Shown here: positions 14,422-33,367 of the stretch, in pieces
Numbering within the stretch: position 1 is the first letter of the stretch
How the letters are laid out: every line of letters starts with the position of its first letter
From: Ponticaulis sp.
GTDB lineage: Bacteria > Pseudomonadota > Alphaproteobacteria > Caulobacterales > Hyphomonadaceae
Assembly (NCBI GenBank): GCA_002701295.1
Contig: NZUJ01000036.1
Coordinates: 1-34,118 of the forward strand
Reading direction: 5' to 3'
Length of the DNA: 34,118 nt
Made by a program: the position numbers and the translations under genes
Notes under the pieces: generated by a model
Seen by the model: the letters and a program-made list of their open reading frames with translations, nothing else
Databases searched by the model: none
What the model was told of the DNA's origin: nothing

Positions 14422-16410
14422 TTATTCTGCAGGGGCCGGAACAGCCTGAGAGCCGGCCGTCTTGCGGGATGGCAGGCGGAAACGGGCATCGGCGAGAGAG
14501 ATAAATCCGCCAATCGCCATGATCAATGCACCGCCCCAGATCCAACCAACAAATGGATGTACGTAAAAGCGGATGCGGTAACGACCATCCTCAAGACCTT
14601 CGCCGACAGCCGCGAACAGATTGCGGGTGAAGCCCACATCGAGGGCAGCTTCCGTCGTCATTTGCTGCTCAACCTTGTAGAGGCGGCGTTCCGGGCGGAG
14701 CGTTGTGATTGTGCGGCCATCCTTGAGAATATCGAGTGTGGCGCTCTGGCTTATATAATTCTCGCCCTCACCCTCCGACACGCTTTGCAAAAGGACCTCA
14801 TAGCCTGCGACTTCCGCGGACTGCGCCGGAGCAAGTGCCAGCTGATCTTCTGATGACCAGACACTCATGCTGGTGACCCCGACCATCGTAACGGCAAGCC
14901 CGACGTGACCAAGCAGGAAACCAAAGGCGGCAGCCGGCAGGCGCGTCATCAGTTTGAAACTGTCAGCCATCGGGATTTTGCCGATGCGGGCTTTGTCAGC
15001 GAATGTGAGAACGGCGCTGATCAGGAGGAATAGCGCCAGACCAATCGCCAGGGCGCCGAGAACGGATTTGCCGATGATCGCCACGAGAATTGCAAGCGCC
15101 CCCCCAGAGACTGCCATGATGGCCAGCGGTTTTGCCAGCCGTTTCGGGTCATCGAGACGCCATTTCAGAAGCGGCCCAACCCCCATGAAAAGAATGAGGA
15201 TCGTCATGATTGGGGCAAAGGTCATGTTGAAATAGGGTGGACCAACGGTGAGCTTTGAATTGGACAGGGCGTCAATCAGAAGCGGGTAGAAGGTGCCGAT
15301 GAAAACAGTGGCGGTCGCTGCGCAAAGAAGAAGGTTATTGAGGACAAGGCTGCCTTCGCGGCTGACGGCATCAAAGGTGGTCGTAGAGGCGATACGGTTA
15401 GCGCGTATCGCATAGAGCGTGAGTGCGCCGCCGGTTGCGAGGGCGAGAAGACCGAGCAGGAACACGCCGCGTTCAGGGTCGACGGCAAAGGCGTGGACGC
15501 TGGTCAGAACGCCGGAGCGCACAATGAATGTACCGATCAGGCTGAGTGAGAAGGTGGCGATCGCCAGAAGCAAAGTCCAGTTCATGAAAGTGTGGCGCTT
15601 CTCAACGACGAGGGTCGAGTGCAGCAACGCCGTACCGGCCAGCCAGGGCATGAGGGAGACGTTCTCGACAGGGTCCCAGAACCACCAGCCGCCCCAGCCG
15701 AGTTCGTAATATGCCCAGAGGCTCCCGAGCGCGATGCCGATGGTAAGGAAGGACCAGGCGGCCAGCACCCACGGACGCACAAAGCGGGCCCAGAGCGCAT
15801 CAACGCGGCCTTCGATCAGCGCGGCGATGGCAAAAGAGAACGCGACCGAGAAGCCGACATAACCGAGATAGAGAAACGGGGGATGAAAGGCGAGGCCGGG
15901 GTCCTGCAGGAGCGGGTTGAGGCCTGAGCCATCCGCCGGGATGACGTCAAGCCGCGTAAACGGGTTGGATGTGAAGATCAGGAAGCCGAGAAATCCGGCA
16001 CCGATAATGCCCTGAACGCCGATAGCGCGCGCCCGCAGAGTAGAGGGCAGAGACTGTCCCAGAAACGCCATGGCGCCACCGAAGATCGCGACGATCATGA
16101 CCCATAACAACATGGACCCTTCATGATTTCCCCAAGCGCCTGACAGCTTGTAGAGAAGTGGCTTGGACGTATGCGAATAGTTGGCCACCAGAGCGACCGA
16201 AAAATCGGATTCCAGAAACAGCGATGCAAGAAGTGCGAAGGCTGTCGCGAGGAATACGGCTTGTCCCATTGCGGCATGATCCGCAAACGCCATCAAACGG
16301 CCATTGACCGACTGAGCGCCCCACAGACCCAGAGTCCCCTGCAGAAGGGCGAGGGTGAGGGAAAGAAGGAGTAGGATTTGACCGGCTTCAGCTAACATGG
16401 GGTCCGTCAT
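14422..16410 (-). CDS. ccmF: Haem lyase subunit CcmF
   Basis: This 662-residue polytopic protein of the CcmF/CycK/CcsA family is the haem-ligating core that attaches haem to apocytochrome c together with CcmH and CcmI. The WWD domain is clear (W-G-G-W-W-F-W-D-P-V-E-N-V-S-L-M-P-W) and is flanked by membrane segments. A large periplasmic loop (about 530-620) precedes the last membrane helix, as in typical CcmF. Length is normal (E. coli is about 650). The start ATG has only a weak ribosome site. It heads the ccmF-G-H-I operon. ccmE, which often precedes ccmF, is not here. Confidence 0.95.
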   Translation of the reverse strand: MTDPMLAEAGQILLLLSLTLALLQGTLGLWGAQSVNGRLMAFADHAAMGQAVFLATAFALLASLFLESDFSVALVANYSHTSKPLLYKLSGAWGNHEGSMLLWVMIVAIFGGAMAFLGQSLPSTLRARAIGVQGIIGAGFLGFLIFTSNPFTRLDVIPADGSGLNPLLQDPGLAFHPPFLYLGYVGFSVAFSFAIAALIEGRVDALWARFVRPWVLAAWSFLTIGIALGSLWAYYELGWGGWWFWDPVENVSLMPWLAGTALLHSTLVVEKRHTFMNWTLLLAIATFSLSLIGTFIVRSGVLTSVHAFAVDPERGVFLLGLLALATGGALTLYAIRANRIASTTTFDAVSREGSLVLNNLLLCAATATVFIGTFYPLLIDALSNSKLTVGPPYFNMTFAPIMTILILFMGVGPLLKWRLDDPKRLAKPLAIMAVSGGALAILVAIIGKSVLGALAIGLALFLLISAVLTFADKARIGKIPMADSFKLMTRLPAAAFGFLLGHVGLAVTMVGVTSMSVWSSEDQLALAPAQSAEVAGYEVLLQSVSEGEGENYISQSATLDILKDGRTITTLRPERRLYKVEQQMTTEAALDVGFTRNLFAAVGEGLEDGRYRIRFYVHPFVGWIWGGALIMAIGGFISLADARFRLPSRKTAGSQAVPAPAE

Positions 16411-16652: not shown

Positions 16653-19007
16653 ATGGCACGTAAGGCTTTAAAGCCCGGAAAGGCTGTTGGTCAGTACATC
16701 ATCAGGTCAGAGAAAGCTCAGGACGTTCTGGGCGTGACATATCTCGGTGATGAAGGACCTACAGCCCCGGGCTCGGCTGCGGTGCTGATCCGGGAAGTCT
16801 TTCCAGCCAATCTGGCGCGACGTCGAGGCGACAAGATTCACGCGTCGCGCAGCACCCAACGCGATGAATTCGACGCGCTGATTGCTTTGGAAAGCGAAAA
16901 GCAAAAACGATATCTGGCTCTTGATACAGACGGTCTTATTCCCGCGCTCGACCACGTTGAGAAAAATGGCACGGTTTATCTGGTCACTGAATGGCCAAGC
17001 GGGGAAAGTCTGGCGCAGACACTGGCAAGAGATGGCCTGTTCTCGCCCGGGTTCGCGCGGTCGCTGCTCAGCGTGCTTCTGCCTGGGTTGAAAGCGCTGG
17101 GCGAGGCCGGGCTGGTGCACAGCCTGATTTCGCCAACGACAATTATGCGTCTGGATGACGGAAAGCCCTGTGTGATCGCACCAGACCGGCTCAAGTTTTC
17201 AGGGCGCGATACTCGCGTGATGACGCTGGACGCCTCCGAAAAAACACCTTATCTGGCGCCAGAATTTCTGAATGCGAGCGTAGGGGAACCGGGCACTGCA
17301 AGTGACGTCTATTCCTTGTGCGCGACATTTTATAATCTGTTGACAGGCAAGACGCCGGCGTCCCCCACAGACCGCCTCAAAGCGGCTGAAGCCGGAGAAG
17401 AGGATCCTCTTGATCTGGAGGTTCTGCGATCCGGTCTGAGTGATGACCCGCAATTGTCTGCTGCACTCGACAAGGGGCTCAGGCTGCGGGTGGCGGAGCG
17501 CCTGGCGACCATGTCTGAACTGGAGTCTGCGATGTATCTTGGGCCCGTTGATGCGGATTTCGAGGATGATGATCAGGCCGTTGGCTTGTCAACGACCGCA
17601 GCGCCGAGCTGGTGGTCGCGCAATGGTCGTGGCCTGATGGCAGGCGTTGGTGCGCTTTTGTTTGTTCTGCTCATCTTTCCGCTGATCAGTTATTTTGTGC
17701 CGGGCGATGGCTCGGTCGATGACGGGGCCGGTGAGGCGCCAATGGTTGAGGTTGAGCGCACGCAGGAGGCGGATGAGCCGACGGCCGTTGCTGCAGAGGT
17801 GCCGGTCGAAGAAGACGAGGTGAGCGTTCAGTCGGGTGATGCGCCCGAGCCTGCAGACCCGGCCATAGTTGCTGAGCCTGAAACGGACGCCGGAATTGGC
17901 CAATGGCTGGCGGTTGATCAAAGCGATCCTGCGGCCATTCTTGCTTTCCTGAATACGGATAATTTGAGCGCGTCCGTCAGAGCGCAGGCGCGAGCACGTT
18001 GGCGAACGCTGGAAGCGCAGGCGTGGCAGGCCGCTGAAGCTGATGGCACTGAGCCTGTGCTTCAGGCCTTTGTGGATGAGTTTGCGACTGAGCCTCCCCA
18101 ATTCGCGCGTTTTGCTGAAGCGGCAAATCTGGCGCTTTCCGAGGTAGGCACGCCGGTTGATACACCGGCATCCGAGCCTGACGCCGTTGAAGACGCGAGC
18201 GAAGATGCTTCAGAAGACGCGCCAGAGGCTGACAATGTGGACGGCAGTGAAAGTGCTGATCCTGCTCCTGAAGAGACGACACCCGAGGAAACGCCAGAAA
18301 ACCCGCCTTTGCCGCCGGTCGAACAAGAGGTGGTGCGGGCGTGCGATGATTGTCCTCCAATGCGGGCAGCGGCTGGTGGTCTCATGTTCAGCGTTCATGA
18401 AGTAACCGTGAGCGAGTATCAGGCCTTCGTGCAGGCAACTGGTCGCAGAGTGTCGCAAGGGTGTTTTGTTCAACGCGCAAATTCAGAGACCGTCTGGGGA
18501 TATGAGTCCGGCGCGAGCTTTGAGGCGCCTGGGTATCCGGTCACTGATGCGCATCCGGCTGTGTGTGTGTCTTTTGATGATGCAACCGCGTTTGCGCAAT
18601 GGTTGAGCGAAATTTCAGACGAGGTTTACAGACTGCCGACTGAAGACGAATGGACCGCTCTCGCAGGTGCGCCATCTCCTGCAGCACTGGCATGTGGGAG
18701 CGGTAACTTCGCTGATGCCAGCCTGAGTGATCTGGGCGTTGGCATTCCAGGCCAGACATGTCGCGATGGGTCCGCCTTCGCCATGCCGGCGTCTTCATCA
18801 GATGATGCATTTTCAGGCTTGCTGGGCAATGTAGCAGAATGGGTTGCGAGCTGCGATGGCGGTGACTGCTCAAAGCGCGTCATTTTAGGGGGCTCCTGGG
18901 CGTCCACGCCGGCGCAAATTCAGCGTGGCTTGAGAGAGATTTACCCGACCAATAGCCGTAACAACTCACTGGGATTCAGGGTTGTATTAGATACATCGTC
19001 TTCGTAA
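16653..19007 (+). CDS. Membrane-anchored pseudokinase fused to FGE/SUMF-like domain
   Basis: This 784-residue protein has a Ser/Thr kinase fold at about 14-295, a polar linker, one membrane helix at about 328-349, a long Glu/Pro-rich periplasmic stretch (350-560) and a formylglycine-generating-enzyme-like domain (565-780). The kinase looks dead. The beta-3 Lys is R47 (V-L-I-R-E-V-F-P), the H-R-D loop reads H156-S-L-I-S-P-T-T-I, and D-F-G is replaced in C-V-I-A-P-D-R-L. Structural marks A-P-E (202-204) and D218-V-Y-S-L remain. The C-terminal domain shows Y-R-L-P-T-E-D-E-W, L-L-G-N-V-A-E-W, L-G-G-S-W and G-F-R-V, but no cysteine follows G-G-S-W, so FGE catalysis is unlikely. The ATG follows CAGGA. 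A sensing or scaffold role is inferred. Confidence 0.82.
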   Translation: MARKALKPGKAVGQYIIRSEKAQDVLGVTYLGDEGPTAPGSAAVLIREVFPANLARRRGDKIHASRSTQRDEFDALIALESEKQKRYLALDTDGLIPALDHVEKNGTVYLVTEWPSGESLAQTLARDGLFSPGFARSLLSVLLPGLKALGEAGLVHSLISPTTIMRLDDGKPCVIAPDRLKFSGRDTRVMTLDASEKTPYLAPEFLNASVGEPGTASDVYSLCATFYNLLTGKTPASPTDRLKAAEAGEEDPLDLEVLRSGLSDDPQLSAALDKGLRLRVAERLATMSELESAMYLGPVDADFEDDDQAVGLSTTAAPSWWSRNGRGLMAGVGALLFVLLIFPLISYFVPGDGSVDDGAGEAPMVEVERTQEADEPTAVAAEVPVEEDEVSVQSGDAPEPADPAIVAEPETDAGIGQWLAVDQSDPAAILAFLNTDNLSASVRAQARARWRTLEAQAWQAAEADGTEPVLQAFVDEFATEPPQFARFAEAANLALSEVGTPVDTPASEPDAVEDASEDASEDAPEADNVDGSESADPAPEETTPEETPENPPLPPVEQEVVRACDDCPPMRAAAGGLMFSVHEVTVSEYQAFVQATGRRVSQGCFVQRANSETVWGYESGASFEAPGYPVTDAHPAVCVSFDDATAFAQWLSEISDEVYRLPTEDEWTALAGAPSPAALACGSGNFADASLSDLGVGIPGQTCRDGSAFAMPASSSDDAFSGLLGNVAEWVASCDGGDCSKRVILGGSWASTPAQIQRGLREIYPTNSRNNSLGFRVVLDTSSS

Positions 19008-19120: not shown

Positions 19121-20803
19121 ATGCGTATGCTATTTTCCGACAAGCGCGGCAATGTCGCCATGATTTTTGCGTTATGTCTGTTACCTCTCCTGGTCATGGT
19201 GGGGGGCGTTATCGACATGTCTCGCCAGCGTGGTGGCGAGGGACGTGCGCAGGATGCACTGGACGCAGCATTGCTGGCCGTGGCCAAAAATGCAGACGGA
19301 AAAAACGACAGTCAGCTGACGCGTGATGCATTGGTCTGGTTTCAAAACCATCTGAATGATCCGAGCTTTTCGGTCGAGTCCTTCACAGTGACGCGGGTGG
19401 ATGATGGCCTGCGCGCAGAAATTACCGGCGGCGTGGAAACTCTGTTTCTGGGGCTGATCGGTATTGAAGACCTCGGCGTGACACGGTCTGCCGAAGTGCA
19501 GGTTGGTCTGACAAAAATCGAACTGGCGTTGGTGCTGGATACCACGGGCTCTATGGGGGCGACGCCATCAGGTCAGTCACAAACCAAGCTGGAAAGCCTT
19601 CAGAATGCGGCCAAGCGCATGGTCACCACACTGGACGCCTTGTCGCCAAATGACAGCATGATTGAAATCGGGATTGTTCCCTTCGCGACCTATGTGAATG
19701 TTGGCGCGGACAATGATAGCGCGCCGTGGATCGATACTGGCGGTGTTTCGCCGGTTCATGGCGATAATCTTGTTGAGGGAATTAATCGGTTTGACCTCTA
19801 TGAACATCTGGGTGCGGAATGGAAGGGCTGCGTTATGGCGCGTCCGGCACCTTATGATGTGGACGATACCCGACCGCGCACAAGCAGACCGGAAACGCTG
19901 TTCGTTCCGCTGTTTCACCCGGATGAACCCGACAGAACCGGGCGTTGGGAGGATTATCCAAACAATTATGTCGACGATCCCGACGCGTCATTTGGCATTC
20001 CGTTTCTCGACCTTGGTAACCCGGTTAAGTATGGCGTTCCATGGGAAATTATCCGCGATATTCCTGGTCTGCCGCAGAGTGTTATCAACCTTCTGATCGG
20101 GCCGGTGTGTGTCGATGGTCTCGACCCAAATAATGGTGAAGGTCAGGAGTGTGGTACAGATCCAACCAATCCTGTGACCTGGACGCCTGTCGATCTTCAC
20201 CCGAACTATCGGTATTACTCTGACGTCGATACGGAAATCGGACCAAGCTTCAGCTGTGAAATGCGTCCAATCACGCCACTGACCTCGAATTATGCAGTGC
20301 TTCGCAGTGAGATTGATTCACTGGTGTCATCTGGCTCGACAAATATTTCTGAGGGTGTGTCTTGGGGTTTGCGGGTCTTGTCGCCTCAATATCCGTTCCG
20401 TGAAGCGGATCAGTACTCATCCAAGGTTCAGAAGGTGATGGTTGTCCTGTCCGATGGAAACAACATGATTGTGAAGCGTGACGGCCATCCGGGCGGCTCT
20501 GACTTCTCAGCCTACGGATATATGGAAAACCGTCGTCTGGAAGGCGTTGAGGGCCGCTATGACCAGCAGGAAATCCTCGATGCGATGGATGCACGGACGC
20601 AGCTGGCTTGCCAGAATGCGAAGGCAGTTGGCATTCGCGTCTTCACCATCCGTCTGGCTCTGGAAGATGATCGTTCAGAAAACCTGCTGACAGAATGCGC
20701 TTCTGATCCGGAGGATTTCATCGATGTTCAGGATTCTGATGATCTGGATGAAGCCTTTGCAGAGATCGCTGACCGGATATCGATCCTGTACCTCTCTCAC
20801 TGA
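19121..20803 (+). CDS. TadG-like protein with von Willebrand A domain
   Basis: This 560-residue protein starts with the Flp/TadE-TadG pattern: K-R-G-N-V-A-M-I-F-A-L (8-18) leads into one membrane helix and then I-D-M-S-R-Q-R followed by A-Q-D-A-L-D-A-A-L-L-A-V-A. A von Willebrand A domain begins near 133 with the metal site D140-T-T-G-S144 and continues to V-M-V-V-L-S-D-G-N-N. A roughly 250-residue cysteine- and Asp-rich insertion sits inside it, as in many TadG proteins. The helix should anchor it in the inner membrane with the vWA part in the periplasm, where TadG-type proteins assist tight-adherence pilus function. No other tad genes are in the window, so it may act alone or with the adjacent pseudokinase. 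The ribosome site is AAGGGGG. Confidence 0.88.
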   Translation: MRMLFSDKRGNVAMIFALCLLPLLVMVGGVIDMSRQRGGEGRAQDALDAALLAVAKNADGKNDSQLTRDALVWFQNHLNDPSFSVESFTVTRVDDGLRAEITGGVETLFLGLIGIEDLGVTRSAEVQVGLTKIELALVLDTTGSMGATPSGQSQTKLESLQNAAKRMVTTLDALSPNDSMIEIGIVPFATYVNVGADNDSAPWIDTGGVSPVHGDNLVEGINRFDLYEHLGAEWKGCVMARPAPYDVDDTRPRTSRPETLFVPLFHPDEPDRTGRWEDYPNNYVDDPDASFGIPFLDLGNPVKYGVPWEIIRDIPGLPQSVINLLIGPVCVDGLDPNNGEGQECGTDPTNPVTWTPVDLHPNYRYYSDVDTEIGPSFSCEMRPITPLTSNYAVLRSEIDSLVSSGSTNISEGVSWGLRVLSPQYPFREADQYSSKVQKVMVVLSDGNNMIVKRDGHPGGSDFSAYGYMENRRLEGVEGRYDQQEILDAMDARTQLACQNAKAVGIRVFTIRLALEDDRSENLLTECASDPEDFIDVQDSDDLDEAFAEIADRISILYLSH

Positions 20804-20813
20804 TCATCGGTCC

Positions 20814-20863
20814 AAAAAAAGAACCCGCAGGATGATGAGGGGTATCATCCTGCGGGTTTCATT
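20814..20863. terminator. Bidirectional Rho-independent terminator
   Basis: A perfect 15-bp stem, AACCCGCAGGATGAT (20822-20836) with ATCATCCTGCGGGTT (20844-20858), closes a 7-base loop. On the minus strand it is followed by seven Ts, ideal for the YadA-like gene. On the plus strand it is followed by TCATTTTG, adequate for the TadG-like gene. Confidence 0.9.
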
Positions 20864-20943: not shown

Positions 20944-23472
20944 TTACCAGCTACCAGAAAACCCAATCCGTCCACCTGTCTCACCACGGTCAATGCCCGT
21001 CGCGACACCCGCATTGAACTGCCATGTGTCGTTGATACGGAAGGCACCAGCCGCCGAGAAGGCTGTCTCACCACCATAGAAGCCGAAGCCGCCAGAGACG
21101 CCGAAGGTGTCGCCGCGTGGAACGTATGGTGTGTCGAGCGCCATAGCCGCTGCGATACCGCCCTTGTTTTCCTGGATCATGTCGACGTTAGACGCGATGA
21201 GCGTGCTGTTCGCCGTGATCAGGTCAGCATTGTTCTGGATCGCCAGAGCATTGCGGGAGATATCCGTTGCGTTCTGAGAGATCGCACCAGCATTAGAGGA
21301 CAGCGTATTGGCGAAGGTGAAATCTGTCGCCAGATTGCCATTGCCGTCAGATGTCACGAGGCCGATAGGACCTGACTGAGCCATGGTGCTGGCCGTCGAT
21401 GTAACGCCTGGCATTGTGTAGGTGCTGGTGGACGAGCCAACCACAACCTGATTGTCACGGGTTGCTGTTGCACCATTACCGATCGCAACGGAGTTGGCAT
21501 AATCAGCGCTGGCTTCGTTGCCGACTGCGACAGCGTATTCGCCGCCTGCCGATGCTGCTTCACCAACCGCAGTTGCCCGCAGAGCACCAGCATTTGCGAG
21601 GTGACCGAGAGCCGTCGAGCGTTCGGCGCCTGCAGAAGACTGCCAGCCATAAGCTGTTGCGCCAGGACCCGTCGCGACACTTTCACCACCGACGGATGTG
21701 GTTGATGGGCCGGTTGCTGTTGAGCTGTCGCCAATCGCGAGGGCGTCGATGCCGTCTGCCATTGCCATGTTGCCGATGGCTGTAGAGTTGTCAGACATTG
21801 CCATAGCCGCTTCGCCGACTGCGAGAGAGCGGAGACCTGCAGCGTTTGCAAGGTGACCAAATGCCTGAGCACGTTCACCAGTTGCCTGAGCCTGCCAGCC
21901 GATAGCTGAAGAGCCGATGCCGCTGGCGACTGACTCACCGCCGACAGCCGTGGTCGAGGTGTTGGTGGCCATGGAGTTGTCACCAACCGCGAGGGCGTCG
22001 ATGCCGTCCGCCATAGCCATGTTGCCAATAGCTGTCGAGTTATCAGACATCGCTGTTGCTGCTTCGCCAACCGCGAGGGAGCGGAGACCTGCAGCGTTTG
22101 CAAGGTGACCAAATGCCTGAGCACGTTCACCAGTTGCCTGAGCCTGCCAACCGATAGCTGAAGATCCGATGCCGCTAGCGACTGACTCGCCGCCGACTGC
22201 CGTGGTCGAGGTGTTGGTCGCCATGGAGTTGTCACCAACTGCGAGGGCGTCGATGCCGTCAGCCATGGCCATATTGCCGATGGCTGTAGAGTTGTCAGAC
22301 ATAGCCATAGCCGCTTCGCCGACCGCGAGAGAGCGGAGGCCTGATGCATTAGCAAGGTGACCAAACGCCTGAGCACGTTCACCAGTTGCCTGAGCCTGCC
22401 AGCCGATTGCTGATGAGCCGATGCCGCTGGCGACTGACTCACCGCCGACAGCCGTGGTCGAGGTGTTCGTCGCCATGGAGTTGTCACCGACTGCGAGGGC
22501 GTCGATGCCGTCAGCCATGGCCATATTGCCGATCGCTGTTGAGTTGTCAGACATGGCAGAAGCAGCTTCGCCGACTGCGAGCGAGCGAAGACCTGATGCA
22601 TTAGCAAGGTGACCAAATGCCTGAGCACGTTCGCCAGTTGCCTGAGCCTGCCAGCCGATTGCAGATGAGCCGATGCCGCTAGCGACTGACTCGCCACCGA
22701 TTGCTGTAGTTGAGGTGTTCACAGCGCGTGCTGAGTCACCAACTGCGAGCGCGTCAACGCCATTTGCGACAGAGAGGTTACCAATCGCGGTCGAGAAGTC
22801 AGAAACCGCTGATGCATCTTCGCCGATTGCAAGAGAGCGTTCGCCGCGGGCGGTTGCGAGGTGACCGAATGCCTGAGCGCGCTCACCGGTCGCGCGGGCT
22901 TGCCAGCCAATTGCAGAAGAGCCAATGCCGTTTGCAACGGCTTCGCCACCGATCGCCGTGGTCGAGGTGTTCAGCGCCTTACTGCTGTCGCCAACTGCCA
23001 GGGCGTCTGTTCCGTTTGCTGTAGAGAGGTTGCCGATTGCTGTAGAGTAATCAGACAACGCCCGGGCACCTTCACCTACGGCAAGGGAGCGAACACCTGC
23101 AGCATTGGCGAGGTGCCCGAGCGCTGTCGCGCGTTCAGCGCCGGCGACTGCCCGCCAGCCAAAGGCGCTCGCGCCTGGTCCCGTAGCGGTGGATTCGCCA
23201 CCGACTGCGGATGTTGATGGCCCGAAGGCATTCGAGTCACTGCCGAGCGCAGTCGCGTCAGAGCCGTCAGCCGTGGCGTTGTCGCCAAGGGCTGTCGCAT
23301 TGTCGCCAGTCGCGGTGGCGCCATCACCAATGGCTGCTGCAGCGGTTGGTGTCGCGTTTGCACCCGTTCCGATCTGAACTTGTGCGGATGCCTGAAAGAA
23401 CATGCCGCTCAGTCCGAAGACTGTCGCCAGACACGTCGTGTTGATCAGGGATCTGGAAATCTTGGAAGTCAT
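20944..23472 (-). CDS. YadA-like trimeric autotransporter-type repeat protein
   Basis: This 842-residue protein has a signal peptide (cleavage near A-S-A-Q, residue 30) and a head of left-handed beta-roll coils of YadA type (S-x-A-I-G-x-x-A-x-A). From 94 to 681 it consists of seven 84-residue units, each equal to six 14-residue coils. Next come a neck-like stretch, a short Asn-rich coiled coil (D-I-S-R-N-A-L-A-I-Q-N-N-A-D-L-I through N-V-D-M-I-Q-E-N-K) and a YadA-type anchor from G-G-I-A-A-A-M-A-L (771) to the C-terminal Trp842. The anchor should trimerise into a 12-strand barrel in the outer membrane with the head outside. The stalk is very short, holding the head near the surface. An adhesive or surface-coat role is inferred. 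Confidence 0.88.
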   Translation of the reverse strand: MTSKISRSLINTTCLATVFGLSGMFFQASAQVQIGTGANATPTAAAAIGDGATATGDNATALGDNATADGSDATALGSDSNAFGPSTSAVGGESTATGPGASAFGWRAVAGAERATALGHLANAAGVRSLAVGEGARALSDYSTAIGNLSTANGTDALAVGDSSKALNTSTTAIGGEAVANGIGSSAIGWQARATGERAQAFGHLATARGERSLAIGEDASAVSDFSTAIGNLSVANGVDALAVGDSARAVNTSTTAIGGESVASGIGSSAIGWQAQATGERAQAFGHLANASGLRSLAVGEAASAMSDNSTAIGNMAMADGIDALAVGDNSMATNTSTTAVGGESVASGIGSSAIGWQAQATGERAQAFGHLANASGLRSLAVGEAAMAMSDNSTAIGNMAMADGIDALAVGDNSMATNTSTTAVGGESVASGIGSSAIGWQAQATGERAQAFGHLANAAGLRSLAVGEAATAMSDNSTAIGNMAMADGIDALAVGDNSMATNTSTTAVGGESVASGIGSSAIGWQAQATGERAQAFGHLANAAGLRSLAVGEAAMAMSDNSTAIGNMAMADGIDALAIGDSSTATGPSTTSVGGESVATGPGATAYGWQSSAGAERSTALGHLANAGALRATAVGEAASAGGEYAVAVGNEASADYANSVAIGNGATATRDNQVVVGSSTSTYTMPGVTSTASTMAQSGPIGLVTSDGNGNLATDFTFANTLSSNAGAISQNATDISRNALAIQNNADLITANSTLIASNVDMIQENKGGIAAAMALDTPYVPRGDTFGVSGGFGFYGGETAFSAAGAFRINDTWQFNAGVATGIDRGETGGRIGFSGSW
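21430..23193 (-). repeat. Tandem 252-bp coding repeats in the YadA-like gene
   Basis: Seven units of exactly 252 bp run end to end. In gene order they are 23193-22942, 22941-22690, 22689-22438, 22437-22186, 22185-21934, 21933-21682 and 21681-21430. Units 3 to 6 are nearly identical in DNA and differ by only a few residues, for example A-A-S-A, A-A-M-A or A-A-T-A before M-S-D-N. Units 1, 2 and 7 are clearly diverged. The array can expand or contract by unequal recombination without changing the frame. Confidence 0.93.
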
Positions 23473-27817: not shown

Positions 27818-30800
27818 TCAGACCATCTGCCATTCGCCGTCCTGCCAGCCGAAGCTGTTTGTGTGCGCGATGTATTCATCAGCAAGGAAGTCGTCAGCCC
27901 GGGTCTCAAATGTGCCTGAGAGCGGATCAGATGAGGTGCTGAGTGGACCGGTCGAGAACTGGAACCAGTTCGCCTGCACGTCAGCCGCAGCATGGCCGAC
28001 GAGTGTTACGGAATGGGTCTGAAGATCAAAGTCCCATGAGACAACGGCATCACCGTCGGCATTGTCGACAATGATCAAGTCGTTGAAAGCCGTGACTTCG
28101 GCGAGACTTATGATGTCATTCTGGCTTTTTGCATAGTCGAGAATGATGTCATGGCCGGTCGTTCCTATAAAAAAGAAGGTGTCGGCATTCGTTCCGCCCA
28201 GTAATTTATCATCATTCTCACCGCCATCGAGCAAGTCATTGCCGATACCGCCCTGGAGATAGTCGTCTCCAGCCCCGCCAATCAGAATATCTGCGCCGCC
28301 GAGACCGATGATGAGGTCATCGCCGTCATTCCCGTTGAGAGTGTTGATCCGGTCATTGCCGATGAGGTAGTCTGAATAGGCACTGCCTGTCAGGTTTTCG
28401 ACATTAATGAAGGTATCGCCTTCAGCGTCGCCGCCGCGTCCGACTGCATCAAGCGCGATAAAAACCGCCACGGATGACGCGAGGTATGATGCGGTATCGA
28501 TCTGGTCTCCACCATCCAGCAGATCAGCCCCGGGGCCGCCGATGAGAAGATCGTTGCCATGCTCGCCATAGAGCTCGTCGTCCTCAGCGCCGCCATACAG
28601 CTCATCTTCATTGCGGCCGCCATAGAGAGTGTCGTTTCCAAAAGAACCAGCCAGGAAATCGTCCCCCTTGTTTCCGAACAAAACGTCATTTCCACCGTGG
28701 CCTAAAATTGAGTCATCACCTTCAAGAGCGTCAATCACATCATCCTGGTTCGCACCATGGATTGTGTCATCGTAGTAGCTAGCCTGGTTTACCGCGGCGA
28801 TGTCGTTGCCGGAAACTGTCAGACCAGGTTGAACATTTACCGATATGGGCGGGACATGGTTCCAGTTTTCCCAGGTTTGTGGCGGGTACTCAACCGATAC
28901 GTTGTAATCACCCGCAGCCAGGCCTGAGATCAGATAATCGCCGTTTGCATCACTGACGTCGTAAGCTTCTCCGAGATCATAGCTGCCATTGGTGTTCTCA
29001 TCGATATAGACGAGCCAGCCTTCGAGAAGGAATTCGATGTTCGGATTGAAGATGAGATTGCCATTTGTATCGTGAAAGACAGTGCCGGAAATACCGCCGG
29101 TCGTGGCCGCATTGCTGCGGGAACCGAAATCCTCGTTCTGAACCAGTTCTCCGCCGCCAACAGTTACTGTGCGTGCCGATGCATCGACGTCATAATCTGG
29201 TGTAAAGGTGATGGCGAACTGACTGGAGAGCGAGCCTGTGTTGAAGCTGTAGAGTTCAGCCTCACTATTGTCATTTTTCTCGATGCCGACGGTCGCGCTG
29301 CTGCCGTCACTTTGCATGCCGCGATACTGGTATTCAATCTGGCCATCCGAATGCAGAATGACCTGGAAGGTCACGAGCTCAGATGAACCGAAACGCGGAA
29401 CCTGCGTGTACTGAACGATGAATCGACCGGTATCCATGTCGGCATAGTAATGAATGCTGCCGCCGTTGAGCGGGTTCAGATCATCCCAGAAAGGCGCGAT
29501 AATCCCGTCAGGTGAGTTAGCGGTGCCATCTGGAAGCGTGACGTTCTCATAGATGTTGGCGCCAGAACCGCCAAAGGTGAGATAGCCGTTCGAAGAGATG
29601 TGAATACTGGTTTGCACCTCGTCATAGAAGAGGAACTCAAAGGGCAGAGAGACTGAGGCCGAGTCGTCGTCACCGAGTGTCAGTTCTGTTCCGATACCCG
29701 CAATGGTCGACCAGCTGTGCGTGGGGCCAAATAATTCGCTGGAGTCTCTTACGATATAGCCATTAAAACCGGCGGGAGCGGGTGAGGTCTGCTCGTGGAA
29801 ATCTGGCAGTACCTGGCGGATGGTGTAAGTCCCCGCCGTGAGATCCTGCAGACGGTAAATGCCGTTGGAGGCCGTAACGTCAGAAATCTCGCCATCGTCC
29901 AGAATGCCGTTATCGTTCGCGTCGATATAGACTGTGCGGCCTTCAAGACGTGTTTCAGTGGCTTCGCGTATGCCATTGCCGTTGACATCATCAAACAGCT
30001 GACCGCGGATTTCCCCTGTTCCGTTGAAAACGATGTCATCAATGGCGAAAGCATCTGTCGTTGAGGACGACATCCGGACTTCATCAATCGACAGGAAGTC
30101 CAGCTGGACGAGTGTTGGTGATTGATCAGACACAGTTACGGTTTTTGAGTAGGTTTCGACGCCGTCATCCCAGCCGGTAATGGTCACGAGATTCGTCGAT
30201 GCTATCCCAGAGGTCAGGTACATGCTGGACAGATCAAAATCTGTCGTGCCTGTGAATGACATGGGGTCGCCGAAACCGTTCAATACCCCATTGTTCAGCG
30301 AGGTAGCGGCAACTTCATAGCCTTGGCCATCGAAATTCGTGTGAGTCGAATCAAATACGATCACATTGTTCCAGGTCAGGTCCATGTAGCCTGCCGTCAT
30401 TTCGACAAGTGAAAGCCCATTGAGGTCGATGTCATCGAAATTGAGCGTGATTTCGTCCGTTGTGAAGGCGACGCCCGGCGTGCTGGCTGGCGCTTCAGGT
30501 GTGCTTTCTGATGGGGCGTCGGGTGGGCTGCTGAATTCTGGTGCGACCGATCCCGCCCCTGACACGTAATCTGCGAACGTAAACCAGGATTCCTGTACGG
30601 ATGCGGCCGAATGTCCGAGCAGAGTCACAGTGACAAGTGAGCCCCAGCTGATGACTGCGTTTCCGGACGAGTCTTCATTGATGACGACATCGTCAAAAGT
30701 ATAACTCTCGTTGATCCAGATCGTGTCGTTCTGTCCGATACTGAAGTCCGTGATGACGTTATCGCCATCGCCGGTGTAGAACATGAAAATGTCAGCGTTC

Positions 30801-33367
30801 CGCCCGCCCGTCAGCGTGTCGTTGTCTTTGCCACCATAAAGCAGGTCGTTGCCGGTGCCGCCAAAGAGTATGTCGTTGCCATAATAGCCGCGAAGCTCGT
30901 CCGCGCCAGCGAGGCCGAAAAGGATATCATCTCCTTCGTCGCCGTTGACGTCGTTGATCCGATCATTGCCAATAAGCAGGTCTGACGCTTCAGAACCAAA
31001 AAGATTCTCTATGTCGATCAATTGGTCGCCTTCGGCCTCGCCGCCATGACCGAAGAAATCGAGCGCGACATAAATCTCATCGAATGAACCGTTGTACGAT
31101 GCGGTATCGAGCTGGTCTCCGCCATCCAGAAGGTCCGCCCCAGAATTGCCGATCAGGGTGTCGTTGCCGTGTTCGCCATATAGCTTGTCATCGCTGGATT
31201 TGCCGTCCAGGACATCATCGTTTCTGCCGCCATAGAGCGTATCGCGGTTAAAGCCGCCTTCGAGATAATCGTTTCCCTTGTTTCCGTACAGAATGTCGTC
31301 TCCATCGAAGGCGACTATATAGTCGTCGCCGTCCAACCCGTCGATGACATCTGCGTCTACCGTGCCGGTAATTGTATCGTCGCCGCTGGTGGCATTACTG
31401 CCGATACCGAAATCGTTTCCAGTGGATTCCGCGCCGGGAACGACCGCGATCTGGTGAGCAGAGCTTTGAGACGCGACGCCTTCGCCAGGTAAGCCCAATA
31501 CGCCTGGTGTTGTTTCGAACCAGCCTTCCCAGGTTGGTGTCGGGATGGTGATAAAGACGTCCACATCGCCGCGATGAATGCCAGATAATGTGTAGTCGCC
31601 ATTCGCGTCTGTGAACGCATAGGCTTCGCCCATGGTATAAGCGCCGTTTCCGGTTTCATCGGCATAGATAAACCAGCCCTCAAGGCCGAAATCCAGATTC
31701 GGGTTGAACAGGCCGTTCTGATTGCTGTCATGATACAACTTGCCAGAGATCAGGCCGGTTGTGGCAGAGACATCGCGTGAACCGAAATCTACGCCGGTGA
31801 TTAATTCTCCAGCCTCAACGCCGACACCTATTCCGTTATTGTTCACGGTATACATCGGCGTATATGTGATTGCGAACTGGCTGGAGAGGCTGGGGGTGTC
31901 GAAGGAGAAAACCTCCGCCGACTGATTGTCTTCGCTTTCAATTCCGACCGTCGCGCTGCCGCCCTGATCCTGCATGCCGCGATACTGATACTCGATTTTG
32001 CCATCCTGGTAGAGGATGACCTGAAAGGTGACGGTATCAAACCCAAAATAGAGAGGCACCTGTGTGTACTGCACGATGAAGCGCGCATTCTCGGCATCGT
32101 AATAATGGTGAATGCTGCCGCCCGCAGCGGGATTAAGGTCATCCCAGAAGGGCGCGATCATTCCATTGGGTTCACCTAAAGCTGCATTGGGTAGATCGGT
32201 GTTTGTCACGTCGGTGGTGTCTGCGCCATCAAACGTCAGAAACCCATTTGATGAGATGTAGACCTGAGTTTCTTCCTGGCCCCAGAATTCGAAGGTGAAT
32301 GGCAGGGTGACCAACGCAGAGCTGTCATCGCCGAGCGTTACCGCCGTTCCGACGCCAACAATTGTTGACCATTCATGAGACGGGCCGTTCAGATCGTTCC
32401 CGCTCTCCTGAAGATAGTGGCTGAAAAATGTCGGAGTAGGAGAGGTCGTTTCATGAGACTCCGGCAAAATCTGACGAATGATATAAGTATCGGGAAGCAG
32501 GTCCTGAAAGCGATAGATCCCGTTCGATGCGGTGATGGCTGTCTGTTCGCCTTCGTCCAGAAGACCATTGCCGTTTGCATCGATATATACGGTGCGGCCT
32601 TCCAGGCGGGCTTCAGTTCCTTCGCGCACGCCATTTCCGTTGACGTCATCAAACAGCTGACCGCGAATTTCGCCGGTTGTCTCAACGACAAGGTCATCAA
32701 TGCCGAAAAACGTGTTATTCAATGCTGGGTCATAGTTGGAGTTTAAGGTGCCCCCTGATGCCGTGATGACGATGCGATCAATTGAGTTCACTGCGACAAA
32801 AGGCGTGTTTACCGGGCCGAATGTATCAATGTTGAAGCCAGCAGCACCAACGCTCACTCCATCGTCGAAAAACTCCATTGTGATGGTCATGCCATCGCGC
32901 GCTGCAGAGATGAAATTGGCCGAGACGAAGTTGAAATCAGACGAAGACGTGATTTCCACTGCGTTTGCCGCAAACTTATTGGCCACGAGATTCGTGCCGC
33001 TGGTCAGGCCATTGGGAAAGGCGTTCGTGTATGGGAAATCGGCGGGCGCTATGACGACGGCGTTGCTCCATGTCAGGTTGGCGTATTCTGTCAGCACAGG
33101 GCCACCACCATTGGCGTCAGTATCAAAGTCCTCAAAGGTGAGTGTCTGCGCATTGATGGCAATTGACGGACCGGATGTCGCCGCAACTGTTTCAGCACTT
33201 TCAGCAGAAGACGTGTCAGCGCTGCTGCTGGCGAAGAGTGCGCCTGCGGGGAGGGCGGATTGAGAGGGAACCGGAGTGGTGTTGCCAGAAAGCCGGAAGT
33301 TCAGGTCGGCAAGCGCGTCTGTGGTCACATCAAGGCGCGCCTGCGCCAGTCTTTCACGTGTAAGCAT
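27818..33367 (-). CDS. Giant duplicated SdrD-like/RTX secreted protein
   Basis: This 1849-residue acidic protein has no classical signal peptide. It holds two long homologous modules. Each contains a lectin-like beta domain (about 75-230; 971-1115), an SdrD-B-like domain (R-G-Q-L-F-D-D-V-N-G-N-G at 235 and 1121), a nidogen-like beta domain with A-P-F-W-D-D-L-N-P (405-413; 1291-1299), a second SdrD-like domain (540-610; 1426-1496), a block of calcium-binding RTX repeats (660-855; 1530-1725) and an RTX-capping domain ending in L-G-H-S-A-A or V-G-H-A-A-A. Unique ends are residues 1-74 and 1806-1849. Such RTX proteins are normally secreted by type I systems, fold on calcium outside, and act as adhesins or matrix proteins. 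The ATG follows AAGGGGG. The TolC-family gene just upstream fits this. Confidence 0.88.
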   Translation of the reverse strand: MLTRERLAQARLDVTTDALADLNFRLSGNTTPVPSQSALPAGALFASSSADTSSAESAETVAATSGPSIAINAQTLTFEDFDTDANGGGPVLTEYANLTWSNAVVIAPADFPYTNAFPNGLTSGTNLVANKFAANAVEITSSSDFNFVSANFISAARDGMTITMEFFDDGVSVGAAGFNIDTFGPVNTPFVAVNSIDRIVITASGGTLNSNYDPALNNTFFGIDDLVVETTGEIRGQLFDDVNGNGVREGTEARLEGRTVYIDANGNGLLDEGEQTAITASNGIYRFQDLLPDTYIIRQILPESHETTSPTPTFFSHYLQESGNDLNGPSHEWSTIVGVGTAVTLGDDSSALVTLPFTFEFWGQEETQVYISSNGFLTFDGADTTDVTNTDLPNAALGEPNGMIAPFWDDLNPAAGGSIHHYYDAENARFIVQYTQVPLYFGFDTVTFQVILYQDGKIEYQYRGMQDQGGSATVGIESEDNQSAEVFSFDTPSLSSQFAITYTPMYTVNNNGIGVGVEAGELITGVDFGSRDVSATTGLISGKLYHDSNQNGLFNPNLDFGLEGWFIYADETGNGAYTMGEAYAFTDANGDYTLSGIHRGDVDVFITIPTPTWEGWFETTPGVLGLPGEGVASQSSAHQIAVVPGAESTGNDFGIGSNATSGDDTITGTVDADVIDGLDGDDYIVAFDGDDILYGNKGNDYLEGGFNRDTLYGGRNDDVLDGKSSDDKLYGEHGNDTLIGNSGADLLDGGDQLDTASYNGSFDEIYVALDFFGHGGEAEGDQLIDIENLFGSEASDLLIGNDRINDVNGDEGDDILFGLAGADELRGYYGNDILFGGTGNDLLYGGKDNDTLTGGRNADIFMFYTGDGDNVITDFSIGQNDTIWINESYTFDDVVINEDSSGNAVISWGSLVTVTLLGHSAASVQESWFTFADYVSGAGSVAPEFSSPPDAPSESTPEAPASTPGVAFTTDEITLNFDDIDLNGLSLVEMTAGYMDLTWNNVIVFDSTHTNFDGQGYEVAATSLNNGVLNGFGDPMSFTGTTDFDLSSMYLTSGIASTNLVTITGWDDGVETYSKTVTVSDQSPTLVQLDFLSIDEVRMSSSTTDAFAIDDIVFNGTGEIRGQLFDDVNGNGIREATETRLEGRTVYIDANDNGILDDGEISDVTASNGIYRLQDLTAGTYTIRQVLPDFHEQTSPAPAGFNGYIVRDSSELFGPTHSWSTIAGIGTELTLGDDDSASVSLPFEFLFYDEVQTSIHISSNGYLTFGGSGANIYENVTLPDGTANSPDGIIAPFWDDLNPLNGGSIHYYADMDTGRFIVQYTQVPRFGSSELVTFQVILHSDGQIEYQYRGMQSDGSSATVGIEKNDNSEAELYSFNTGSLSSQFAITFTPDYDVDASARTVTVGGGELVQNEDFGSRSNAATTGGISGTVFHDTNGNLIFNPNIEFLLEGWLVYIDENTNGSYDLGEAYDVSDANGDYLISGLAAGDYNVSVEYPPQTWENWNHVPPISVNVQPGLTVSGNDIAAVNQASYYDDTIHGANQDDVIDALEGDDSILGHGGNDVLFGNKGDDFLAGSFGNDTLYGGRNEDELYGGAEDDELYGEHGNDLLIGGPGADLLDGGDQIDTASYLASSVAVFIALDAVGRGGDAEGDTFINVENLTGSAYSDYLIGNDRINTLNGNDGDDLIIGLGGADILIGGAGDDYLQGGIGNDLLDGGENDDKLLGGTNADTFFFIGTTGHDIILDYAKSQNDIISLAEVTAFNDLIIVDNADGDAVVSWDFDLQTHSVTLVGHAAADVQANWFQFSTGPLSTSSDPLSGTFETRADDFLADEYIAHTNSFGWQDGEWQMV
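28100..28790 (-). repeat. RTX calcium-binding repeat block, second copy
   Basis: This encodes residues about 1530-1755. Nonapeptides of the G-G-x-G-x-D-x-L-x kind recur (G-N-K-G-D-D-F-L, G-G-A-G-D-D-Y-L, G-G-I-G-N-D-L-L). The block is interrupted by the spacer D-T-A-S-Y-L to L-I-G-N-D-R-I-N, and ends in a serralysin-type cap (D-I-I-L-D-Y-A-K-S-Q-N-D-I-I). Confidence 0.85.
30710..31390 (-). repeat. RTX calcium-binding repeat block, first copy
   Basis: This encodes residues about 660-885 with the same order as the second block: nonapeptides (G-N-K-G-N-D-Y-L, G-E-H-G-N-D-T-L, G-G-T-G-N-D-L-L), the spacer D-T-A-S-Y-N to L-I-G-N-D-R-I-N, more nonapeptides, then the cap N-V-I-T-D-F-S-I-G-Q-N-D-T-I. 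G-E-H-G-N-D recurs 870 residues later in the second block. Confidence 0.85.

Follow-up and report, generated by a model that had tools for sequence, protein, structure and literature searches.

What does a membrane protein do with a kinase domain that has lost its catalytic residues, and why is such a domain kept? The question is raised by one gene of the marine bacterium Ponticaulis sp. (Alphaproteobacteria, Hyphomonadaceae), located in the 34,118-nucleotide stretch of contig NZUJ01000036.1 analysed here (the window). Only a small number of bacterial Ser/Thr pseudokinases have been investigated. Seven bacterial families, mostly of unknown function, are distinguished in a 2025 review, which does not mention an FGE-like domain (PMC12599244). 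A transmembrane bacterial pseudokinase with an FGE-like partner domain is unreported in the open-access literature searched. It is so far found in one genus, Ponticaulis.

Architecture of the protein

The 784-aa protein has two Pfam matches, both above the curated cut-off: Pkinase (PF00069, residues 91-241, E 4e-11) and FGE-sulfatase (PF03781, residues 579-778, E 1.2e-26). Its features are listed with coordinates in the window, strand and evidence.

16653..19007, +: transmembrane pseudokinase with a C-terminal FGE-like domain, 784 aa (ORF, Pfam, orthologues in 7/7 Ponticaulis genomes).
16653..17543, +: pseudokinase domain, residues 1-297 (AF2 pLDDT 83.8; VIA-align Z).
17631..17696, +: single transmembrane (TM) helix, about residues 327-348 (hydropathy).
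17697..18332, +: acidic, fast-evolving stalk (53 D/E vs 6 K/R in 212 aa; dN/dS).
18333..19004, +: PvdO-type FGE-like domain, without the FGE active-site Cys (Pfam, profile and fold matches).

The stalk is longer by about 100 D/E/T/A-rich residues in the P. koreensis group (L035:7286-9892, L036:7722-10391, L037:7901-10546). Eight Cys are invariant in the 7 orthologues and every one lies inside the FGE-like domain. This fits an oxidising compartment, and the head is accordingly placed, on sequence grounds, on the probable periplasmic side.

The kinase domain: fold kept, catalytic residues replaced

The bilobal fold of Hanks-type protein kinases is indicated both by Pfam and by a confident AlphaFold model of residues 1-301 (pLDDT 83.8, pTM 0.85). 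Superposition on active kinases, proposed as a check in the first-pass annotation of this DNA, gives Z 24-25 with PpkA, PknA and PknB (VIA-align; 24.9 for PpkA 5hnv, 24.8 for PknA 4x3f). PpkA is the nearest solved kinase, and Foldseek E-values reach down to 1.9e-15.

Residues were compared in an alignment of the 7 Ponticaulis orthologues with two active relatives. The following replacements were read from it.

16722..16724, +: D24, invariant Asp (7/7) at the second Gly position of the Gly-rich loop.
16791..16793, +: R47, replaces the beta-3 Lys, Arg invariant (7/7).
16899..16901, +: K83, replaces the alpha-C Glu, Lys or Arg in 7/7.
17124..17126, +: L158, replaces the HRD Asp, L/Q/G in orthologues.
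17178..17180, +: A176, replaces the DFG Asp, A/T/H in orthologues, followed by Pro in 7/7.

From the single sequence, the first-pass annotation had reported that A-P-E and D-V-Y-S are retained and that the beta-3 Lys (Arg47), the HRD Asp (Leu158) and the DFG Asp are lost. Both motifs are present in the ORF, and the three losses recur, in kind, in all 7 orthologues. Its list is extended by D24, K83 and T163, which stands for the catalytic-loop Asn. Both Gly of the Gly loop, the Arg and Asp of HRD, the Lys and Asn of the catalytic loop and all three DFG residues are replaced in 7/7, with Pro at the Phe position. The HRD-equivalent motif reads HSL, HGL, HGQ or HGG. The HRD His, the Ala and Glu of APE, the alpha-F Asp and the Arg pairing with APE are kept in 7/7. 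The beta-3 Lys, the Asp of HRD and of DFG and the Gly-rich loop, by which an active Hanks-type kinase is defined, are thus replaced in all 7 orthologues.

A displaced catalytic Lys or Asp was sought in the 7-orthologue alignment, and the active-site region holds no invariant one. Among Lys residues, only the N-terminal K4 is invariant. Outside the Gly loop, invariant Asp are found at 218-265, none of them in the catalytic or Mg loops. The acidic residue of the Gly loop and the Lys/Arg at the alpha-C Glu site would disfavour binding of ATP and Mg. The domain is predicted to lack kinase activity.

Conservation and selection in Ponticaulis

Each of the 7 Ponticaulis genomes carries one orthologue with an open reading frame, always between a divergent ccmF and a same-strand Tad/VWA gene. 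(A single-sequence scan of the genome contigs gave no match; relatives were obtained by an alignment-based scan.) The search of homologues suggested in the first-pass annotation bears it out: the same kinds of substitution and the same domain order are found in 7/7. The cultured species Ponticaulis koreensis DSM 19734 carries the dead form.

The window protein is about 40-46% identical to the orthologues of other species, vs mostly 60-80% across the same species for its immediate neighbours (ccmF, ccmG, S46, VWA gene), so the protein evolves fast overall. The dN/dS ratios, calculated from three closely related genomes (G001, which is P. koreensis, G004 and G006), lie at 0.016-0.027 in the kinase domain, at 0.061-0.093 in the FGE domain and at 0.26-0.40 across the TM helix and stalk. 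They are 0.025-0.028 for ccmF and 0.059-0.102 for the VWA gene. Within the protein, the kinase domain has the lowest ratio (about 0.02, similar to that of ccmF): in this group of close genomes, no other part is as constrained as the dead domain. Being under purifying selection in these three closest species, it is not decaying. Kinase fold, loss of the catalytic motifs and maintenance under selection are found together, as in a pseudokinase. This assignment is strongly supported by the strength of the selection and by the lack of an invariant displaced Lys or Asp in the active-site region.

The FGE-like head

The C-terminal domain has the PF03781 fold of formylglycine-generating enzymes (E 1.2e-26; PvdO/FGE fold match) and is nearest to PvdO (profile, E 1.6e-41), which is also the closest solved structure (Foldseek, 4.7e-11). 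The structural check of this half thus also agrees with the initial proposal, with a model of moderate quality only (pLDDT 69.5; model residues 145-170 poor). The active-site Cys of the enzymes (after GGS[YW]x) is replaced by Ser or Thr in the orthologues.

18903..18905, +: S751, at the FGE active-site Cys position (GGSWAS) (profile/structure comparison, relatives).

The lack of a Cys after G-G-S-W had been noticed correctly. The active-kinase relatives described below also have Ser at this site (GGSWFSG). A Cys was found in 0 of 97 proteobacterial FGE-like domains with a readable motif, a sample that was fetched by this query and is biased towards its branch. The lack of the Cys is therefore ancestral to the branch and is not a loss coupled to that of the kinase. 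The description of the protein as two former enzymes stands for the kinase half and falls for the FGE half.

Two gaps are specific to Ponticaulis: a segment of about 30 residues near the domain start is missing and the hairpin before GGSW is shortened. They suggest that the binding face of the head may have changed.

Relatives and evolutionary origin

In the kinase tree, a long stem leads to a single clade of pseudokinases (support 100/100). Among the kinases sampled, active ones from a sister genus of Hyphomonadaceae (g8) are nearest to it. The two g8 sequences group together (92/84), and the split joining them to the pseudokinases has moderate support (83/72). The g8 proteins have the same order (kinase, TM, repeats, FGE), with K, HRD and DFG intact. 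Their gene set includes two VWA proteins, a MotA/ExbB-family protein and a PP2C phosphatase encoded directly downstream of the kinase-FGE gene (L038:5766-13178, L039:4748-11249; kinase-FGE, two VWA_3, MotA/TolQ/ExbB-family, PP2C). This set possibly constitutes an energised envelope signalling system; no description of it as a system was found in the open-access literature searched.

In another genus (g2), the FGE protein starts shortly ahead of the TM helix; it retains TM, repeats and FGE domain, and the kinase domain is cleanly absent. PP2C was found neither beside the g2 FGE gene nor in either of the two g2 genomes (86-88% complete). The other genes of the set are kept (L165:7726-15220, L166:936-5695). 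Kinase domain and PP2C phosphatase are thus either both present (g8) or both absent (g2). A search of the 7 Ponticaulis genomes for the VWA/ExbB gene set that accompanies the active kinases found it in none (0/7). The source genome has a single PP2C, located away from the pseudokinase locus.

When 385 alphaproteobacterial genomes were searched, 15 strong non-self matches were obtained. Fourteen are kinases with intact HRD and DFG, of which one is fused to an FGE domain; the remaining match is an FGE-only protein. These genomes yielded no further dead kinase-FGE protein. Descent from an active kinase-TM-repeat-FGE receptor kinase that worked with a PP2C phosphatase is suggested by these comparisons. 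One bacterial family would then present, apparently, three stages: active kinase with phosphatase; dead yet strictly conserved kinase; kinase and phosphatase removed. Such a family is a natural experiment on which functions of a receptor kinase need no catalysis.

Genomic neighbourhood and candidate partner

14422..16410, -: ccmF, divergent neighbour that marks the locus in all 7 genomes and is not a proposed partner (Pfam, synteny).
19121..20803, +: Tad/pilin-like and split VWA protein, TadG/CpaL-like layout, candidate partner (Pfam, synteny 7/7).
20822..20858, no strand assigned: hairpin with a 15-bp stem 3' of the VWA gene, T tail reads on the - strand (hairpin search).

The VWA neighbour has the pilin-like N-terminus and split VWA of TadG/CpaL-like proteins (Pfam: Tad, 10-56; VWA pieces, 136-194 and 377-448) and bears DTTGS (MIDAS-like). 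Eight stretches of the source genome match it, and Flp pilins are present in that genome. In Caulobacter, CpaL consists of a pilin-like part followed by a split VWA and is a proposed pilus mechanosensor (PMC12607857); the likeness of the neighbour to CpaL rests on this domain layout.

The gap between the pseudokinase and VWA genes is 114-203 bp across genomes, and in the window no terminator-like site was found between them. The hairpin at 20822-20858 lies between the convergent VWA and YadA genes and is probably a terminator, perhaps shared. Across genomes the neighbours are ccm genes, S46 peptidase, TadG-VWA, and YadA or an esterase; the genes beyond the VWA gene differ between genomes, and conservation also extends over the entire ccm side of the block. 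In the window, the YadA-type trimeric autotransporter adhesin is encoded at 20944-23472 (-; Pfam YadA_head, YadA_anchor), with a YadA gene at the same place in only one other Ponticaulis genome (L034). An 1849-aa protein with RTX nonapeptide repeats, SdrD_B and nidogen-like domains is encoded at 27818-33367 (-).

VWA genes adjoin both the dead (Ponticaulis) and the active (g8) forms, for which reason the VWA protein is taken as the first candidate partner. Its conserved position hints that it may be the leading one.

Two other associations were considered and rejected. The similarity to PpkA prompted a search for a T6SS link, and VipB (PF05943) was found in 0/8 genomes. Matches to defence proteins (PADLOC and NCBIfam: PD-T4-6, MAD6, PglW) span the kinase domain only, and the NCBIfam ones are far under the cut-off, as expected from generic kinase similarity.

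Proposed role

A docking surface is the best explanation for a folded dead kinase that is kept under tight selection. It is considered fairly probable that the protein is a non-enzymatic scaffold or relay, in which a dead kinase docking module and a PvdO-type head are joined across the inner membrane. A Hanks-type kinase without catalysis would be kept as a folded docking module in the cytoplasm. A single helix in the inner membrane and an acidic, flexible stalk would tether it to a periplasmic head rich in disulfides. The head would bind a ligand or a partner, the adjacent membrane-anchored VWA protein being the leading candidate. This binding would be passed on to, or kept in register with, a partner bound to the pseudokinase domain in the cytoplasm, as in EssB/YukC. 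An inside-outside sensor or scaffold, as the first-pass annotation had supposed, is the best inference for the Ponticaulis protein. A more elaborate scenario is speculative and judged unlikely in its full form: a single conversion at the base of Ponticaulis would have turned a kinase-FGE/PP2C/VWA/ExbB-type receptor kinase into an envelope transducer without catalysis, which would read the pilin-like (CpaL-like) VWA protein through its FGE head and pass the state to a cytoplasmic partner. If true, a receptor kinase would have given rise to phosphorylation-free signalling, with surface sensing as one example of its use.

Other roles can be assigned to the kinase domain. It could be a mere membrane-targeting or folding remnant that is being lost, all the work being done by the head. 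The clean absence of the domain in g2, which retains TM, repeats and FGE domain, fits such a loss, but no part of the Ponticaulis protein is more constrained than this domain (dN/dS about 0.02), its structural residues are invariant and the frame is open in all 7 genomes, which makes a remnant quite improbable. Eukaryotic pseudokinases often act as regulatory subunits of active kinases. The domain could likewise regulate an active Hanks kinase of the same cell, with the head sensing the envelope. The source genome does encode further kinases (C45 and C66, HRD intact in both) besides its one distant PP2C; however, no kinase gene is adjacent and no direct link was found, and this role is rather improbable.

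The altered pocket could also bind a nucleotide or carry out another, SidJ-like transfer through Arg47 and other residues. Pseudokinases with other chemistry are on record (PMC12599244, PMC6858067), and the invariance of Arg47 and Asp24, which do not drift, may mean that the pocket itself is selected. Such unorthodox catalysis or nucleotide sensing is nevertheless unlikely, given the remoteness of the invariant Asp from the catalytic and Mg loops, K4 as sole invariant Lys, and the charges at the Gly-loop and alpha-C sites, which would oppose ATP/Mg binding. The scaffold or relay is retained as the preferred reading.

Comparison with known systems

PvdO, FGE and GldK (PF03781) have the fold of the C-terminal domain, PvdO being nearest. 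The Ponticaulis domain differs from them by the missing FGE Cys and by its two deletions, near the domain start and before GGSW. Chlamydial kinase-DUF323/NirV proteins, described in 2005, combine a kinase with an FGE-family domain on its C-terminal side; according to that paper chlamydiae have no TM kinases, and its passages on these proteins do not call them pseudokinases (PMC1262709). In the GLW pseudokinases of proteobacteria, GLW replaces HRD, and Leu/Trp in a poly-Leu motif replaces the beta-3 Lys (PMC12599244); the Ponticaulis proteins have HSL/HGL/HGQ/HGG and Arg.

EssB/YukC has an N-terminal pseudokinase with all ATP motifs degraded, one TM and an extracytoplasmic C-terminal domain (PMC9600267, PMC12599244). 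The YukC pseudokinase does not bind ATP, and YukC interacts with other secretion subunits (PMC9600267). The layout (pseudokinase, one TM, extracytoplasmic domain) is shared with the Ponticaulis protein, homology being claimed for the kinase fold only. EssB/YukC differs by a helical extracellular domain and by belonging to the T7SSb of Firmicutes, in contrast to an FGE-like head in an alphaproteobacterium, and the neighbours of the Ponticaulis gene are not T7SSb components.

The g8 kinase-TM-repeat-FGE proteins differ by intact kinase motifs, by the PP2C, two VWA and MotA/ExbB genes alongside and by a context other than ccmF/TadG. They have in common with the Ponticaulis protein the domain order, the TM, the CxxCP start of an FGE domain devoid of the active-site Cys, and the link to a VWA gene.
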